Source of the DNA: a virus
IMG/VR virus record: IMGVR_UViG_3300020445_000066
Location: 1-25,272 of that record
Strand: one strand, 5' to 3'
DNA: 25,272 nt
Shown: one piece after another, positions 1 through 23,325 of the stretch
How positions within the stretch are numbered: position 1 is the first letter of the stretch
How the letters are laid out: each line of letters begins with the position of its first letter
Translations under genes and position numbers: made by a program
Notes under the pieces: generated by a model
The model's input: only the letters and a program-made list of their open reading frames with translations
What the model was told of the DNA's origin: nothing
The model's database searches: none

Positions 1-537
1 CTCTGTCTCCAGTATAGTATTAATCCTCTTAAGAAATGCTGACGCTAACTCTGCCTTCTCTCTACCTTTGATATGAAAATCAACCACAGAGCACCTAGAG
101 TGCAGTGGTTCTATGATTTTATTCTTATAGTTACATGTGAAGATGAACCTACAGTTCTTCTGGAATTCCTCAATCGACGCACGGAGTAAGAGTTGTACAT
201 CGGGGGTTGTATTATCTGCTTCATCAACAATGATAATCTTAGTACCTGCTGAAGATGTAAGAGAAACAGTAGAAGCAAAGGTCTTTGCCTTATTGCGTAC
301 AGTGTCCAAGAATCTACCTTCATCCGATCCATTAATGACATAATAGTCTGCTCCTAACTCCTTACACAATGCTTTTGCAATGGTTGTCTTACCAATACCT
401 GCTGGACCAGAGAGTAACAAGTTAGGTATCTGACCCTGTTCCAAGAAACCTTTAAACATTTTCTTGGATTCTGCAGGTAGGATACAATCATCCACCGTCT
501 CAGGTCTATACTTCTCCACCCATAAGAAATCGTTCAT
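1..537 (-). CDS. 44: Sliding clamp loader large subunit gp44 (partial, C-terminus outside window)
   Basis: This is the N-terminal 179 codons of the AAA+ ATPase that, with gp62, opens the gp45 ring and loads it on primer-template DNA. The frame stays open to base 1, so the C-terminal part of the gene (T4 gp44 is 319 aa) lies outside. Visible motifs are the start MNDFLWVEKYRP, Walker A GPAGIGKT (residues 44-51), Walker B IIIVDEAD (101-108) and the SRC motif of clamp loaders (147-149) carrying the trans-acting arginine. The ATG at 537 overlaps the TGA of the upstream methyltransferase as ATGA, so translation is probably coupled. In T4 the gene directly follows gene 45; here a methyltransferase sits between them. 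Confidence 0.95.
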   Translation of the reverse strand, partial: MNDFLWVEKYRPETVDDCILPAESKKMFKGFLEQGQIPNLLLSGPAGIGKTTIAKALCKELGADYYVINGSDEGRFLDTVRNKAKTFASTVSLTSSAGTKIIIVDEADNTTPDVQLLLRASIEEFQKNCRFIFTCNYKNKIIEPLHSRCSVVDFHIKGREKAELASAFLKRINTILETE

Positions 538-1421
538 TTGACATACTCCTCATGAAGTTCACAACCAATATAATGCCTGTTAAGAGATTTGGCAACCCTT
601 GCAGTAGTACCTGATCCCATGAAAGGATCCAATATGATATCACCTTCCTTACTACCTGCTCGTATGCATGGTTCTATAAGGTCTGGTGGGTACACAGCGA
701 AGTGAGTCTTCATCTTACTAGGTTTATTAGTAACAGACCATACACTACGCTTATTCTTCTTAGGATAACTCTTAGTCAATCCAGTGTGAGGGTTGAGTCC
801 AGTACCAGGATTATGATACTTACCACTCTTTCTATTCCTAGTTCCCCAATCCTTAGCAGGTTCTTTTATTGCTTCATTATCATAGAAATATTTCTTATTC
901 TTACTGAGTAAGAAGATATACTCATGTGATTTTGTGCAACGATCCCTTACTGATTCTGGCATCGGGTTTGGTTTGTGCCATATAATGTCTTGACGTAGAT
1001 ACCACCCATCAGCACGGAGAGCAAACGCAAGCATCCAAGGAATACCGATGAGATCTTTTTCTTTGAGTCCATCTATCTTGTTACCTCTTCTAGGGCAATT
1101 GGTTGGGTGGTCTTGATCGCTAGTAGCAAGTGTTTGTCTTGCTAATGCTTGACCCTTACCAGGTCTATAGTTGTAATAACTATCACCTATGTTAACCCAT
1201 AGTGTACCATCGTCAGTTAGAACATCTCTAACTGATCTGAATACTTCCACCAACTGTTGTATATATTCTTCTGGTGATTGTTCTTGACCTATCTGATTCT
1301 CTTCATCCCCATAATTTCTCAGTCCATAGTAAGGAGGTGAGGTTACACACATCCTTACTTTCTCATCGATTGTCTTGAGTGTATCTCGACAATCTCCAAC
1401 TAACGTGACATCAATACTCAC
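534..1421 (-). CDS. DNA methyltransferase (N6-adenine / N4-cytosine type)
   Basis: An S-adenosylmethionine-dependent amino-methyltransferase of the N6_N4_Mtase family. The catalytic motif TSPPYYG lies near the N-terminus (residues about 27-33) and the AdoMet-binding motif DPFMGSGTT near the C-terminus (about 265-273), the beta-class order. TSPPY occurs in both m4C and m6A enzymes, so the target base is undecided. Start choice: the frame runs up to a TTG at 1439, but a GTG at 1421 is preceded by TGGAG at a good distance, so I prefer 1421 (295 aa). It overlaps the end of gene 45 by 11 bases (29 from the TTG) and joins gene 44 by ATGA. No restriction endonuclease is visible, so it is an orphan enzyme, perhaps for protection against host restriction. 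It is tightly embedded in the replication operon. Confidence 0.9.
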   Translation of the reverse strand: MSIDVTLVGDCRDTLKTIDEKVRMCVTSPPYYGLRNYGDEENQIGQEQSPEEYIQQLVEVFRSVRDVLTDDGTLWVNIGDSYYNYRPGKGQALARQTLATSDQDHPTNCPRRGNKIDGLKEKDLIGIPWMLAFALRADGWYLRQDIIWHKPNPMPESVRDRCTKSHEYIFLLSKNKKYFYDNEAIKEPAKDWGTRNRKSGKYHNPGTGLNPHTGLTKSYPKKNKRSVWSVTNKPSKMKTHFAVYPPDLIEPCIRAGSKEGDIILDPFMGSGTTARVAKSLNRHYIGCELHEEYVK

Positions 1422-2112
1422 TATCTGGCTCCAATGCAATGAGGTACTCTAATGATGAGACATTATCCTCTGCACTTTTGCTGATTATACCTGTGAACTT
1501 GGCAACCTTACACTGGAATATGTCTAACTTATATGCTGTACATAGTTTATTAGGTCTGATAACAGTTAGGTTCTCAATCTTAAGGCAGAAACAAAAATCC
1601 TTTTCGACAGAACCTAACTCTATCTCCAGTGAGTTTGACGCACTATTACGCTTATCAGTTACGATAGCAGATAGTTTACCCTTATCACCTGTAAAGCATA
1701 TGTCTGGCAACTGATAGGTAGATGCAATCCTCTGAATCTGATTAAGGTCAGATACATCTAACGTAGTTGACACAACTGGATCACCCATGTCCTGTATAGT
1801 CTCAGGAGGTTGTGTAACCATACGCTCTTCAGCATAGTAATACTTAATAAGACTACGCTTAGATGTGATGTCTACACGTTGCTCTTGGAACTCAACATCC
1901 CCATTGTCCAACGTCTTAATACTGTTAATCAGGTTACCTAGATCATAGATCGGTGCCTGTTTCTTAAAAGTAAACGCAGGAAAATCTGCAACAGCAAGTA
2001 TGTTCTTGTTGTTTGAGATCGTGGAGACCTTGTTGCCTGGTTTAAACACAATAGATGGATTGATCTCTCTAAAAGAAGTCAATACTTCCATCTCATAATC
2101 TGTAAATTTCAT
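1411..2112 (-). CDS. 45: DNA polymerase sliding clamp gp45
   Basis: The trimeric ring clamp that holds the phage DNA polymerase on DNA; in T4 it is also the mobile activator of gp55-dependent late transcription. The protein is 233 aa against 228 in T4. Recognisable are the N-terminal region with 'LTSFREINPSIVFKPGN', the 'IYDLGNLINSI' segment matching T4 'AIYDLNGFLGIL', and the C-terminus 'LIALEPDSEY' matching T4 'VVALEADSTHDF'. I start at the ATG at 2112; a TTG one codon upstream is less likely. The ATG overlaps the stop of the DUF3310-like gene by one base (TGATG), so the two are probably coupled. Its product is the partner of the downstream gp44. Confidence 0.93.
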   Translation of the reverse strand: MKFTDYEMEVLTSFREINPSIVFKPGNKVSTISNNKNILAVADFPAFTFKKQAPIYDLGNLINSIKTLDNGDVEFQEQRVDITSKRSLIKYYYAEERMVTQPPETIQDMGDPVVSTTLDVSDLNQIQRIASTYQLPDICFTGDKGKLSAIVTDKRNSASNSLEIELGSVEKDFCFCLKIENLTVIRPNKLCTAYKLDIFQCKVAKFTGIISKSAEDNVSSLEYLIALEPDSEY

Positions 2113-2420
2113 CAATAGTTTAACTCCTGAGAGGGGATGTCGTTGATTTGCTTGTCGTCAGGATAAGTTGTTCCTGAGAAGTAATATAATAGTATAGCAT
2201 AGTGGATGATTTTTAGCACGTCCTGCTTATGCTGATTCTTTTTCTTGTAACGAGATGCATACTTAATGATATTGGATTGACAGAAGTGCTCTGCTGATCC
2301 TATTGCCTCAAGGAGGTCTAAAGTCTGCACATCTTTTTCCTCGTTAGAGTAATGAGATCGGTAGGTAGAAGAAATGTAATCTTGTACCACCTTGATCGTT
2401 TCGTCTTCTCTATACTTCAT
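2112..2420 (-). CDS. DUF3310-like small protein
   Basis: A 102-residue soluble protein. The central segment, with 'LLEAIGSAEHFCQSNIIKYASRYKKKN' character (residues about 38-64), matches the pattern of DUF3310, a family common in phages and related to the T7 gp1.7 nucleotide kinase region; the present copy is short and I see no P-loop, so no activity can be assigned. The start at 2420 overlaps the stop of the oxygenase gene as ATGA and its own stop overlaps the gp45 start. Placement in the replication operon next to the clamp is consistent with a nucleotide- or replication-related role, but that is inference only. Confidence 0.75.
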   Translation of the reverse strand: MKYREDETIKVVQDYISSTYRSHYSNEEKDVQTLDLLEAIGSAEHFCQSNIIKYASRYKKKNQHKQDVLKIIHYAILLYYFSGTTYPDDKQINDIPSQELNY

Positions 2421-2974
2421 TGTGAAAATCTTTCTAGTTGAGTGAGGTAAACATCGTCAGTAACCACATGCGAGAGAGCATCTCTTATGAATGGGTTCTG
2501 AACGTTGGACTGGTTCCACCAATGGACTACTTGTCTTGATCCCTTAGTGACTGGGTGTACTCTGTGTACTATACCAGTTGGGTAGGATACTGCCCACCCC
2601 ATAGGTAACCTAGTATACACTGAGTAATCACCTAGTTTTAACTCCAATTCACCACCCTCATAATCATCATTAAGAAATAGAGTAGTAGAGACATCGAGTC
2701 TCTTATCATCGAGGTTAGTGATCTCGTCTGAGTGCCAGTCATAACTATCTCCTTCGAGATATTCTTTATAAGTATAACCTGATCTGTAATTGCTGCAAGT
2801 GATAATGTCATGATCACTTTCATCAACATAAGAATCAAGCACACCGTCCCTATGACTGAAACCCCTGATCTCTAAGCAAGATTTGAGGTGGTTCTTGACC
2901 ACCTCAAAGTCACCTGCAAAGGATTTAATATGATTGATTTGTTTCGGATGGAGTATCCTGATCTTGTGCAGCAT
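2417..2974 (-). CDS. 2-oxoglutarate/Fe(II)-dependent oxygenase (prolyl 4-hydroxylase-like)
   Basis: A 185-residue member of the double-stranded beta-helix dioxygenases that couple 2-oxoglutarate decarboxylation to substrate hydroxylation. The iron triad is visible as H81-x-D83 (in YDWHSDE) and H137 (in IVHRVHPV), and R147 (in GSRQVV) sits ten residues after H137, where the 2-oxoglutarate carboxylate is bound. The segment 'DDYEGGELEL' (103-112) is typical of the P4H-like group. Such genes recur in marine T4-like phages; the substrate (protein, nucleobase or metabolite) is unknown. The ATG at 2974 lies inside the end of cobS, an overlap of 50 bases, and I see no good Shine-Dalgarno sequence there; the 3' end joins the next gene by ATGA. 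Confidence 0.88.
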   Translation of the reverse strand: MLHKIRILHPKQINHIKSFAGDFEVVKNHLKSCLEIRGFSHRDGVLDSYVDESDHDIITCSNYRSGYTYKEYLEGDSYDWHSDEITNLDDKRLDVSTTLFLNDDYEGGELELKLGDYSVYTRLPMGWAVSYPTGIVHRVHPVTKGSRQVVHWWNQSNVQNPFIRDALSHVVTDDVYLTQLERFSQ

Positions 2975-4100
2975 AAGGTGTGTCTGATAGGTCTACTTTA
3001 GCATCAATCTTGCTATAGAGTTCTAAGAATGACTCTTTAGTCTCATCGTCAAAGCGGTTGAGACATACTTTAAGTGCCTTGATGCGATCCTTAAAGATAG
3101 CAAATGCACGAATTACATGAACCAGTCTACGAGTTGAGATAACTTCATCCACTCCTCCTTCAGCGAAGGTCTTACGGATGATCTCTGCCCATGTAGTAAG
3201 ATTCTCAGTGTACTCATCGTCACAGCAGTTTAATTCTGAACAATAGTTGTTGAGGATCTTCTTCTCATAACTTACATTAGGATACTCTTGCTCAAATGTC
3301 AAGGGGAATCTTTCTAAGAATGCTTCGTTCAGTACATTAGTACCAACGAACCTACCGTCATCGGATCCTTTACCCTTAGTGTTAGCAGTTGCGATAACTG
3401 TAAACCCTGCTGCAGGTTTTACATACTTACCAATCTTTTTGAGGAATACACCCTTCCCTTCGAGAATAGATTGTAAGCATAGGATCTTGTTAGAGGCGAG
3501 GTCAAGTTCATCGAGTAAGAGAACTGCTCCACGTTGGAGTGCCTCGATGACAGGACCGTTGTGCCAGACAGTGCTACCGTCCACGAGACGAAAACCGCCA
3601 ATAAGATCATCTTCATCTGTTTCTACTGTAATGTTTACACGAATAAGGTCTCTACCTAACTGAGCACATGCTTGCTCTACACCGAAGGTCTTACCATTAC
3701 CTGATAAACCAGTGATGAATATAGGATAGAAGATCTTTGATTTTACAACCTTCTTAAGGTCATTAAATGTACCGAATGGAACATAGTTTGGATCCTTATC
3801 AGGTACTAAGTCCTTACCTGCTAGGTATGCAGGATCAAATGAATCAACAAGTGCAGTCTTTGGTTGTGTAGATTCTTTATAAGTCTTTTCTAATGCTTCT
3901 CTTACTGTGAATGTCCAGTTACCTTTACTTGTTTTCTGAACTAGGTTGGAACATGATCTAGTAAGTCTTGCATATATGCTAGGAGTCTTTACTCCGAAGT
4001 GTTGTGCTGCTTCCGAAACTCTCTTACTTGTAAAGTCACCCTTATCTGGGGATAGGAAGTTTAGCAGATCGTCATTGCTGAATGTTGATGTGAAAGGCAT
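2925..4100 (-). CDS. cobS: CobS/MoxR-type AAA+ ATPase
   Basis: A 391-residue AAA+ ATPase of the CobS/MoxR group, annotated cobS in many cyanophages after the small subunit of aerobic cobaltochelatase. Motifs: Walker A GLSGNGKT (131-138), Walker B LLLDELD (194-200), sensor 1 ATAN (237-240), an arginine-finger candidate in FLERF (261-265) and sensor 2 STRRL (322-326). Residues about 8-75 look like an added DNA-binding-type winged helix ('AAQHFGVKTPSIYARLTR'), unusual for bacterial CobS. It lies 78 bases after the VWA protein gene, its expected partner: CobS/MoxR ATPases work with VWA proteins. No CobN is present here, so either it complements a host CobN or it remodels something else. The structured gap upstream may regulate it separately. 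Confidence 0.85.
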   Translation of the reverse strand: MPFTSTFSNDDLLNFLSPDKGDFTSKRVSEAAQHFGVKTPSIYARLTRSCSNLVQKTSKGNWTFTVREALEKTYKESTQPKTALVDSFDPAYLAGKDLVPDKDPNYVPFGTFNDLKKVVKSKIFYPIFITGLSGNGKTFGVEQACAQLGRDLIRVNITVETDEDDLIGGFRLVDGSTVWHNGPVIEALQRGAVLLLDELDLASNKILCLQSILEGKGVFLKKIGKYVKPAAGFTVIATANTKGKGSDDGRFVGTNVLNEAFLERFPLTFEQEYPNVSYEKKILNNYCSELNCCDDEYTENLTTWAEIIRKTFAEGGVDEVISTRRLVHVIRAFAIFKDRIKALKVCLNRFDDETKESFLELYSKIDAKVDLSDTPYAAQDQDTPSETNQSY

Positions 4101-20526: not shown

Positions 20527-23325
20527 TTAAGATACTACTTCTGAGAAACTAGCACCAGTTCTAGTAGCAGTAAACTGGAGTGTAATGAAGTTGATCGACC
20601 TTGTTGGTTTTACAAAGATTTCAGCGAAGAATTCACCACGATCAATAGCATCAGGTGGGTTGTTGGTAGAATCACAAACAACTAAGAAGTCAACAACACC
20701 TCTTCTTGCCTGTACACCACGAAGATAAGGATTAACAATATTCTTAAATCCTTGACGAGTAAACTCATCGTTCATCTCGAATAATTGACCCTTAGCAGCA
20801 ACCGAGATTGCTCTCTCAATTACAAGGAACAAACGACGAACGTTGATTCTATCAAATGCACTTGCTATTCCTTGTGCAGTCTTATCTCCGTAAAGGATGA
20901 TACCTTGTCCAGGGAAAGAACATATTGGGTTGATTCTTGCAGAGTATAAGCGATCTCTATGATCCTTAAGTGGTGAGTATGCTAGTTTAATAGCGTTCCT
21001 CAACTGTCCTCTGTTAAATCCAGCAGGTGAGAACCAAGGCTCTTGGTTAAGAGCAGTGCTCAATGTTAGACCTGCAACGTCAGAGTTACATGCTAACCAT
21101 CTGTATTTATCATTGTACTTGTCATAAATGTACTTATAGTTATTATCAAACACACCGTATGATGTGGAAGATAATGCATTAAAGAACTCAATGACTCTAT
21201 CTACAATAGTATTAACTGAAGGAACTCCGATCACCCTATCTCTTGGAGGTGATATGAATGCCATGCAATCCTTACGAGTAGCAGCAAGATCAAGCATCTT
21301 CTGTGCCTTTGCTGTACTATCTGTTAGGTTACTCATTGCTGGACCTTGGAGAATGTAATCAATCTCTTCTGTCTCTGCGTCAGAGTATAGGTCGTAAGAA
21401 TCGAATAACTTGTCCTTCTCTAGTGTGTATCCATCTACACCACCACGAAGACTGTACTTCACTGTGGAAGAATTCTTAGTGTATAGTAGAGGAATTGCCT
21501 GAGCGTTAGTACCAGTTGGGTCATCCTGTGACAGGATAGCGTAAGTGTTCTTAAATAAATCGAACTTACGGTTAATTACGGTACTACCAATATCACCTGT
21601 AGCATTACTGTCAATATCAAAGACTGTATTTGCTTCGTGTGATCCCCACCAAATATATGTGGAGTTCTGCTTGATAACATCCTTATAATAGATGTTAGCA
21701 CCTTGAGGTGACTTAACGTCAGGTGACTTAGATACATCTAAGAATTTCTCAAGAATAGATCCAGGAACACCAGTGATACCACCGTCACCATCGATGACTA
21801 GGATATGCATTAGGTCTCTGAAACCACCACGGTCTGTTGCGTACTGTGAAGTACCAGGTCTAGGAGCAATTGCTCCCCATTTCTGGTTAGGACCATAGTA
21901 ACGAGAAGTGTACTCTGCCTCGATACCTGTAACTGTTACGTTATCACCTTGGTTCTCTCCAGAAGTAACTGTAGAAGAATCTTTAATAACTTGGTTTGCT
22001 GCGAAGTCTGTAGAACCTTCGTTGTGTGCAACAACCAAACGACGTTTGATCTTCTCTACAACTGCAGTGTCACCTGTAGCAGATCCAGGAGCGTTAGAGT
22101 TGTTTGCTAGTTCTGTGAATGCATCACCAACTTCTAGGTAATCAGAACCAGTATCATCAACTGATAACTCAATAGTACGAGAAGCAGCATCATAAGCAAT
22201 GATACGTCCTGTAACGTTACCTGATACAGCAGTGTAGAAGTTATCTGCTTCGAATCCACCAACGAGGTTAGAACCTGCTTCGAAGGTTACGATCAAAGAG
22301 TAACTATAAACTTTAGAATATGTATTAGTAGCACTTACGCTAACACCTGATCCAGCAGTGAATTTCCACTCATTACCTGCACTAGGTGATGATAACCAAA
22401 GAACTTGGTCAGGACCAGCGTCTGTAGCAACAACACGGATTGAGTTACCGTACTGACCTGGAGTTCTTGCTGCCCATTTCCAGTTATTTGCTGCCTCTTC
22501 CGTAACAGCTTCGTAAGTATCAATGTTCTTAATGATAGGTGGCGTAACACCTGTGGAAGTTTCTTCGTTAATTGTTGTCTTGTTTGCTGTAACTGTCTGA
22601 AGTGTTACCGCACTTCCGTCTGTATGAGCAGCAGCAGTTGTTCCAAGAGCACCACGAGTAACAGTTAAGTTGTTTGTGGAGATTGCAGTGACCTGAAGTA
22701 TCTCAGAGTCTATTAAGATGTAACTGTTATTCTGTACACCCAAAGTAGCAGCAGAAGTAACTGTTAAAGTTGTATCAGCATCACTATAAGTACCACCTTC
22801 GTTAACAGTAGAAGCAGTACCTGCAGGTTCTATCAATGTAATCTGAGAAGATGCAGCGTGAGATACAGCAGATGTACTCCATGCTCCACGAGTAACAGTA
22901 ATGTCTAGACCAGAGATAGCAGTGACCTTAAGGATTTCAGCATCCACTTTGATGTAGTCATTAACATCAAATCCAGTTGCAGAAGTAACTGTCAGAGTTG
23001 TATCTGTAGCACTGAATGTTGTCTGTGTAATCTGTGTAGAATCAATAGAGTTCTTTAGAGAAGCATTGTCTGCACGAACTACTTTAACAGAACCACCATA
23101 AAGGAGGAATTGAGCGATACTAAACCAATACTCGTAGTTAAAGTCATTTGGTTTACCGAATGTAGCGATTAGTTCTCGTTCGCTAGAAATAGTTTGGACC
23201 TCTTCTACTGGTCCTTTCTCAAATGCACCTGCAATAGCAGCTACATTATCCACCGTTGCATTGGTGGTATGAGACAGATCTCTTTCTAGTACGACAACAC
23301 CTGGTGATGCTTGTGTGGATGCCAT
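20527..23325 (-). CDS. 18: Contractile tail sheath protein gp18 with inserted repeat domain
   Basis: The subunit of the contractile sheath. At 932 aa it is much longer than T4 gp18 (659). Conserved ends are MASTQASPGVVVLERD and the C-terminal 'QGFKNIVNPYLRGVQARRGVVDFLV' to 'SINFITLQFTATRTG', the core forming the handshake contacts between sheath rings. Between about residues 100 and 245 lie two tandem copies of a 62-residue beta-rich repeat (TLTVTSATGF, DAEILKVTAI, LTVTRG), followed by more inserted beta-rich sequence to about 470, probably outer protrusion domains. AAGGAG is close to the ATG and a late-promoter-like element lies 41 bases upstream. Confidence 0.96.
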   Translation of the reverse strand: MASTQASPGVVVLERDLSHTTNATVDNVAAIAGAFEKGPVEEVQTISSERELIATFGKPNDFNYEYWFSIAQFLLYGGSVKVVRADNASLKNSIDSTQITQTTFSATDTTLTVTSATGFDVNDYIKVDAEILKVTAISGLDITVTRGAWSTSAVSHAASSQITLIEPAGTASTVNEGGTYSDADTTLTVTSAATLGVQNNSYILIDSEILQVTAISTNNLTVTRGALGTTAAAHTDGSAVTLQTVTANKTTINEETSTGVTPPIIKNIDTYEAVTEEAANNWKWAARTPGQYGNSIRVVATDAGPDQVLWLSSPSAGNEWKFTAGSGVSVSATNTYSKVYSYSLIVTFEAGSNLVGGFEADNFYTAVSGNVTGRIIAYDAASRTIELSVDDTGSDYLEVGDAFTELANNSNAPGSATGDTAVVEKIKRRLVVAHNEGSTDFAANQVIKDSSTVTSGENQGDNVTVTGIEAEYTSRYYGPNQKWGAIAPRPGTSQYATDRGGFRDLMHILVIDGDGGITGVPGSILEKFLDVSKSPDVKSPQGANIYYKDVIKQNSTYIWWGSHEANTVFDIDSNATGDIGSTVINRKFDLFKNTYAILSQDDPTGTNAQAIPLLYTKNSSTVKYSLRGGVDGYTLEKDKLFDSYDLYSDAETEEIDYILQGPAMSNLTDSTAKAQKMLDLAATRKDCMAFISPPRDRVIGVPSVNTIVDRVIEFFNALSSTSYGVFDNNYKYIYDKYNDKYRWLACNSDVAGLTLSTALNQEPWFSPAGFNRGQLRNAIKLAYSPLKDHRDRLYSARINPICSFPGQGIILYGDKTAQGIASAFDRINVRRLFLVIERAISVAAKGQLFEMNDEFTRQGFKNIVNPYLRGVQARRGVVDFLVVCDSTNNPPDAIDRGEFFAEIFVKPTRSINFITLQFTATRTGASFSEVVS
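22597..22785 (-). repeat. Sheath repeat copy 2
   Basis: Encodes gp18 residues about 181-243, with DTTLTVTSAATLG, SEILQVTAI and LTVTRGALGTTAAAH. It aligns with copy 1 over its whole length; at DNA level the stretch around 22750-22775 is nearly identical to that around 22979-23004. Confidence 0.8.
22831..23016 (-). repeat. Sheath repeat copy 1
   Basis: Encodes gp18 residues about 104-165, with DTTLTVTSATGFD, AEILKVTAI and LDITVTRGAW. Such repeats (TLTVTSATGF ... EILKVT ... LTVTRG) are known from structural proteins of several phages and look like small beta-domains. Confidence 0.8.

Follow-up and report, generated by a model that had tools for sequence, protein, structure and literature searches.

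Contractile tail sheaths must rearrange in order to contract, and many large phages add extra domains of unknown use to them. Evseev et al. 2022 (PMC9230969) report that such additions are frequently more numerous in large phages, and that type 3 sheaths possess a conserved core formed from the N- and C-terminal parts together with additional β-rich domains located away from the tube. In gp18 of phage T4, residues 98–188 constitute Domain I, an outward-protruding insertion which is described as binding to the baseplate and to the retracted long fibres and as being free of gp18–gp18 contacts (PMC3004832). Another described system is the hub of phage JBD30, whose domain VI, a small barrel of six strands, is reported to touch another domain and to stabilise the baseplate (PMC11445458). 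Here we analysed a viral DNA stretch of 25,272 nt (IMG/VR record IMGVR_UViG_3300020445_000066, in the following the window). Its gp18 is a multi-domain sheath of the known type, built with a barrel module that is unnamed in the searched libraries. No description of a tandem pair of such modules was found in the accessible parts of the open-access literature on cyanophage sheaths, gp18 domains, accessory domains and the motif.

Architecture of the sheath protein

The tail sheath family phrog_23 matches the window gp18 at 1.3e-128, and two Pfam models exceed their cut-offs, PF17482 (sheath C-terminal; 57.3 bits, cut-off 26.9) and PF04984 (subtilisin-like; 36.5 bits, cut-off 31.4). PF22671 at residues 28–84 stays slightly under its cut-off (25.6 bits vs 27). 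The sheath of the cultured phage P-RSM6 is 89.6% identical. An AlphaFold model of the full-length protein (pLDDT 79.2, pTM 0.60) superposes on the sheath structures 9ev2 (Z 30.9, rmsd 4.4, 478 aligned) and 3foa (Z 27.0, rmsd 2.6, 357 aligned), and by this model gp18 shares the overall fold of the T4-type tail sheath protein. The order and sizes of the window ORFs, compared by size and order alone, fit the annotated P-RSM6 gp17/gp19/gp20 order. Table 1 gives an overview of the features.

Table 1 Features of the window gp18 and of two further ORFs (positions in the window)
Feature	Residues	Position	Strand	Basis
gp18, T4-type contractile tail sheath protein	932 aa	20527..23325	-	phrog_23, PF17482, PF04984, P-RSM6 sheath
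Sheath domain III, N-terminal part, ahead of insert	28-84	23074..23244	-	PF22671
Inserted block containing both copies	96-262 (167 residues)	22540..23040	-	Alignment; block-alone structure
Copy 1, predicted beta-barrel module	102-167 (66 residues)	22825..23022	-	Sequence and structure
Linker between copies	168-177 (10 residues)	22795..22824	-	Structure models
Copy 2, predicted beta-barrel module	178-245 (68 residues)	22591..22794	-	Sequence and structure
Sheath core	481-932	20527..21885	-	PF/T4 alignments
Phosphoribosyltransferase-like ORF	187 aa	23630-24193	-	PF00156 and PF14681, under cut-off
DNA methylase, N6_N4_Mtase family		534-1439	-	2.6e-61

A preliminary description of the window, made from the letters alone, had reported a tandem repeat at 22597–23016 in a gp18 about 270 residues longer than that of T4. 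The repeat is real, and the measured excess over the 659 residues of T4 gp18 is 273. Two adjacent units of 62 residues had been proposed. Their number was confirmed, whereas their size and adjacency had to be revised (Table 1); the long last strand of copy 1 (residues 161–174) extends into the linker, and the period from start to start amounts to 76 residues (228–234 nt at the DNA level). Between the two copies 36 of 66 aligned residues are identical. The alignment score of 152.5 lies so far above that of 1000 shuffled sequences (mean 8.8, maximum 42) that chance similarity is ruled out. At the DNA level identity reaches 60.6% over aligned codons and 72–77% within three ungapped blocks, and Tandem Repeats Finder found no array at the gp18 repeat region. 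The same codon is used at 21 of the 36 identical residues, with 15.2 expected from the codon usage of gp18. The likeness of the DNA, which had also been pointed out earlier, is modest; with codon sharing near the expectation, most of it follows the likeness of the proteins. The 24 diverse copies of the module all share one Glu and one Arg, and nearly all have one particular Thr and one particular His; in copy 2 some members carry Gln in place of the conserved His.

By profile alignment the N-terminal part of gp18 follows T4 gp18 up to about residue 92–97 and resumes near T4 residue 339, the alignment between these two anchors not being reliable. In the alignment, P-RSM1 and Syn33 have shorter sheaths (751 and 750 aa, respectively) that lack the inserted block. 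As the insert starts at T4 92–97, beside Domain I, outward exposure on the tail is likely by homology. The earlier placement of the domains in the outer sheath region thus agrees with the insertion point, the outward direction being taken over from T4; with a pTM of 0.60 the full-length model does not fix the insert firmly against the core and does not prove its orientation. Profile alignment (hhalign) with T4 residues 98–188 gave probabilities of 1.9% (A3) and 0.1% (A4), a missing match that does not disprove homology.

Apart from the sheath gene, the phosphoribosyltransferase-like ORF lies between a terminase-like ORF and gp18, with PF00156 and PF14681 at about 1e-4. P-RSM6 has a 78-aa ORF at this place. 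By its sequence, the window ORF is possibly an auxiliary metabolic gene.

Distribution among related sheaths

Among 228 distinct full-length sheaths 120 have no module, 82 have two copies at residues of about 100 and 180, 16 have one copy near residue 280, four have two matches near 280 and 340–360, and six have three; these loci are the best-scoring 80 per scan (15 in one scan), so that this mixture is not an estimate of frequency. The class of 82 was sorted by the presence of the pair itself and was therefore rechecked by the C-terminal core alone. A core identity to the window of at least 69.5% is reached by 87 sheaths, every one with exactly two copies, and the remaining 147 of 234 distinct N-complete sheaths (core at most 64.6% identical) have no pair at that place. 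A query without the insert returned two copies in 69 of 69 N-complete loci among the best-scoring 80, from which 11 loci cut at the N-terminus had been dropped (five with two copies, three with one, three with none). The pair was found in four cultured phages, P-RSM6, S-SZBM1, S-WAM1 and P-TIM40. Consequently the copy number, which had been suspected to vary between strains, is constant in both samples, and the comparison among relatives revealed two diverged copies in every examined member of the window's clade, i.e. an old fixed architecture in the terms of the preliminary description itself.

More distant sheath clades differ in the number (0, 1, 2 or 3) and place of the module. A tree calculated from 55 representative cores groups the two-copy sheaths of the window's kind into a single clade (100/99) and those with three copies into a separate one (100/100), each adjoining module-free relatives. 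One-copy sheaths are interspersed with module-free ones; pooled with them are four sheaths of the site 3 group in which a second, possibly weak match was counted. The conserved anchors (IKN … DQ) separate insertion site 1, ahead of them, from sites 2 and 3, which lie behind them in a region that aligns poorly between clades. Two entries of the module into T4-type sheaths are well supported, and three entries are the simplest reading, sites 2 and 3 being less firmly distinguished than site 1, which the anchors set apart.

Further arrangements were observed in single groups. A rare 1132-aa sheath (L233 2795-6190; L343), present in a handful of contigs, has three module matches in a different loop, the first of them partial. 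Two 879-aa sheaths (L242, L263) and two related sheaths of about 723 aa (L293, L296) differ by one module and, judged by sequence, are a natural gain or loss pair. The ACG-2014d sheath (L091 501-2903, 801 aa) carries a different extra segment in its outer region, where no Pfam match was found. Sheath loops may accept several kinds of insert.

Age of the pair and constraint on the copies

Orthologous copies are on average 0.65 (copy 1) and 0.63 (copy 2) identical (83 proteins), and the two copies of one protein 0.43 (range 0.32–0.55, 75 proteins). In a tree of the copies they cluster by position, with 3 and 2 changes compared to 26.9 in shuffles; this tree is built from few columns and neither copy group is a single clade. 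Codon sharing between the copies is slightly above the usage expectation (mean z 0.64 over 83 proteins). The preliminary description had considered a recent duplication, or copies kept alike by recombination. Copy tree, ortholog and paralog identity and codon sharing together led us to reject recent duplication and gene conversion: copies cluster by position, orthologs are more alike than the copies within one protein, and shared codons remain near expectation. What speaks for a recent, length-variable and strain-variable tandem repeat of this kind is the window's own pair, which stands at the top of the identity range of the 75 proteins (0.545) and shares slightly more codons than expected (z 1.98). 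This top rank may explain the first impression. Nevertheless, with exactly two copies in all clade members examined, we regard such a repeat as extremely improbable. The pair looks old and fixed in the cyanophage lineage of the window, as far as the sequences tell.

Median dN/dS was lowest in the N-terminal part (0.07), followed by copy 1 (0.09), the sheath core (0.10), copy 2 (0.13) and the middle region 263–480 (0.18), as calculated from 149–156 non-independent close pairs. By these ratios both copies are under purifying selection. They are conserved about as well as the core and better than the neighbouring region 263–480, and the values of close pairs give no sign of overall diversifying selection in either copy.

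This constraint bears on whether the module could be a neutral or selfish passenger, a mobile coding element tolerated in exposed loops and persisting because its removal is rare. In favour of this, the module occupies two or three sites in sheaths and is also found in virion proteins unrelated to them, and related sheaths exist with it (L242, 879 aa) or without it (L293, 723 aa). In the clade of the window, however, loss was seen in 0 of 87 core-defined sheaths and 0 of 69 N-complete loci, and each copy is under purifying selection, which makes a mere passenger improbable.

Predicted fold and relatives of the module

The inserted block alone was modelled by AlphaFold with a pLDDT of 95.6 and a pTM of 0.87 as two similar β units, each of five main strands plus edge strands. 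In VIA-align it matched the Vibrio phage VP1 major capsid protein at 63–153 (9in6; Z 11.2, rmsd 4.0, 79 aligned), the JBD30 tip/hub at 479–558 (8rk3; Z 10.2, rmsd 2.0, 75 aligned), the GP4 tail protein (Z 10.1, rmsd 6.4, 93 aligned), the Mystique tail tube at 103–186 (Z 9.8, rmsd 3.0, 77 aligned), the K1 lyase, a capsule lyase (7w1c; Z 8.9, rmsd 1.9, 73 aligned), and the Chi tail tip (8vjh chain B; Z 8.8, rmsd 1.8, 74 aligned). F1-ATPase barrels rank next (Z about 8). Foldseek alone found no match in the PDB at E 0.001 or better; its best match was a depolymerase (3.3e-3), with riboflavin synthases among the next ranks. Where recognised, the fold matches are barrels or phage domains; the absence of Ig from this list does not exclude Ig.

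A sequence profile of the 24 diverse copies finds 8vjh chain A (1.3e-12), 8rk3 (6.8e-5) and 9in6 (0.0017). For 8rk3 and 9in6 the profile and fold matches fall on the same residues; 8vjh, with its sequence match on chain A and its fold match on chain B, was left out of this count of agreement. According to model and profile, the gp18 module shares sequence profile and small barrel fold with the JBD30 hub and VP1 capsid domains. Residues 479–558 of the JBD30 hub are probably domain VI.

No model above its curated cut-off was found for the 24 copies in Pfam (best E 0.024) or NCBIfam (best E 0.0066; 16.7 bits, cut-off 62.3), cut-offs having been compared for the first member only. PF24149, the Rider domain of K1 lyase, matched two of the 24 copies weakly (0.045). 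A LytR_cpsA_psr match stayed under the cut-off in gp18 (E 0.23) as well as in copy 1 (E 0.025) and was taken as chance. The PHROG profiles of several virion proteins include the barrel module.

Occurrence in other virion proteins

Whole phage records were searched with the module profile at E 0.01. This yielded six matches each in P-RSM6 and P-TIM40, five each in S-SZBM1 and S-WAM1, and two to five in each of six other cyanophages, some of them weak or partial. As controls, the T4 record gave no match and 757 shuffled ORFs none at the threshold used (best E 1.2). The five matches of S-SZBM1 fall in the sheath (_182), a structural protein (_53; 1173-3377, L450) that adjoins a YadA-domain protein, and the baseplate wedge initiator (_205). 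All three proteins are listed in the published virion proteome, and the 924-aa sheath is reported as detected in virions by LC-MS (PMC9146016).

Each of the four cultured phages has two module matches in one open frame of 729–738 aa, whose P-RSM6 counterpart (L449 1967-4150) belongs to phrog_693, tail fibre protein, and exceeds the family profile by about 230 residues. The sheath stabiliser gp15 of P-RSM6 carries one copy. Elsewhere the module was located at residues 84–151 of a SU10-type major capsid protein (L255 3743-4924; PF17236 1.6e-51), in phrog_3287 structural proteins (L224, L250) about 195 residues longer than the family profile, and in a protein (L257) for which no family matched in phrogs or Pfam; names of these other proteins derive partly from one representative each. 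Judged from these searches the barrel module is widespread in virion proteins and without a name in the searched domain libraries, and its profile exposes a domain hidden in proteins annotated only as phage structural proteins.

The fibre family assignment in P-RSM6 and the related fold in the capsule lyase 7w1c are consistent with accessory adhesins, i.e. many weak binding sites along the tail that would hold the phage to the cyanobacterial surface. Adhesion is among the roles that Evseev et al. (PMC9230969) propose for extra sheath domains, Ig-like ones included, and long tail fibres are reported to be missing from all four cultured phages that carry the insert (PMC9146016). Against this stand the constraint on the copies, which is similar to that on the core (dN/dS 0.09 and 0.13 vs 0.10) and shows no sign of overall diversifying selection, and the finding of module or fold in proteins of the capsid and the tail tube, for which an adhesive role is less to be expected. 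We consider an adhesive function, the main alternative to bracing, possible but unlikely.

Discussion

We propose that the insert is a tandem, diverged pair of a small mobile β-barrel module, which one cyanophage clade would have carried in its sheath already prior to its diversification. Both barrels would face outwards from every gp18 subunit, at the chain position of T4 Domain I. There the pair might act chiefly as a rigid brace or cover of the tail surface. Purifying selection would maintain each copy for the contacts that it makes itself with adjacent subunits or further components of the tail. An old, outward-facing barrel pair working mainly in this way is, in our view, somewhat probable. 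We infer the bracing role of the barrels: brace or cover is favoured by the constant copy number, the purifying selection on each copy and the confident compact fold, and also by JBD30, where the six-stranded hub domain, probably the barrel related to the module, reportedly stabilises the baseplate through its contacts (PMC11445458). As gp18–gp18 contacts are absent from T4 Domain I, bracing would not be inherited from the insertion position.

In a broader reading the unnamed barrel family is mobile and supplies cyanophage virions with exterior building blocks in general. It would have entered the sheath independently two or three times, been doubled or tripled there, and reached the sheath terminator as well as baseplate and fibre proteins of the same particle. 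In the window's clade, which is reported to lack long tail fibres, the pair would stand where T4 has its fibre-docking domain and form a new outer layer that takes over adhesion or armouring. We judge this rather doubtful. The fibre binding of T4 Domain I and the reported lack of fibres in the window's clade amount to a single coincidence.

Sheaths with none, one, two or three modules exist, at different sites and with relatives that have or lack them. Due to this variation in number, site and presence, the role of extra sheath domains can be tested by comparison and deletion.

Like the type 3 sheaths of Evseev et al., the window gp18 combines a conserved core with extra β-rich domains. The extra domains described there are mostly Ig-like sandwiches, whereas those of the window are predicted barrels, and the cyanophage sheaths listed have 635, 669 and 731 residues compared to 932 in the window; neither a sheath of this kind nor a tandem barrel pair was found in the accessible text (PMC9230969). 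The VP1 major capsid protein resembles the gp18 module in fold (Z 11.2) and, weakly, in sequence profile (0.0017), but has a single match and is a capsid protein and not a sheath. The JBD30 hub likewise agrees in fold (Z 10.2) and profile (6.8e-5); there, a single match lies in a siphophage tip protein, in contrast to the tandem pair on a contractile sheath. T4 Domain I, described as a six-stranded barrel plus helix that protrudes outward (PMC3004832), shares the insertion point in the chain with the window insert, but is one domain where the window gp18 has two tandem barrels.
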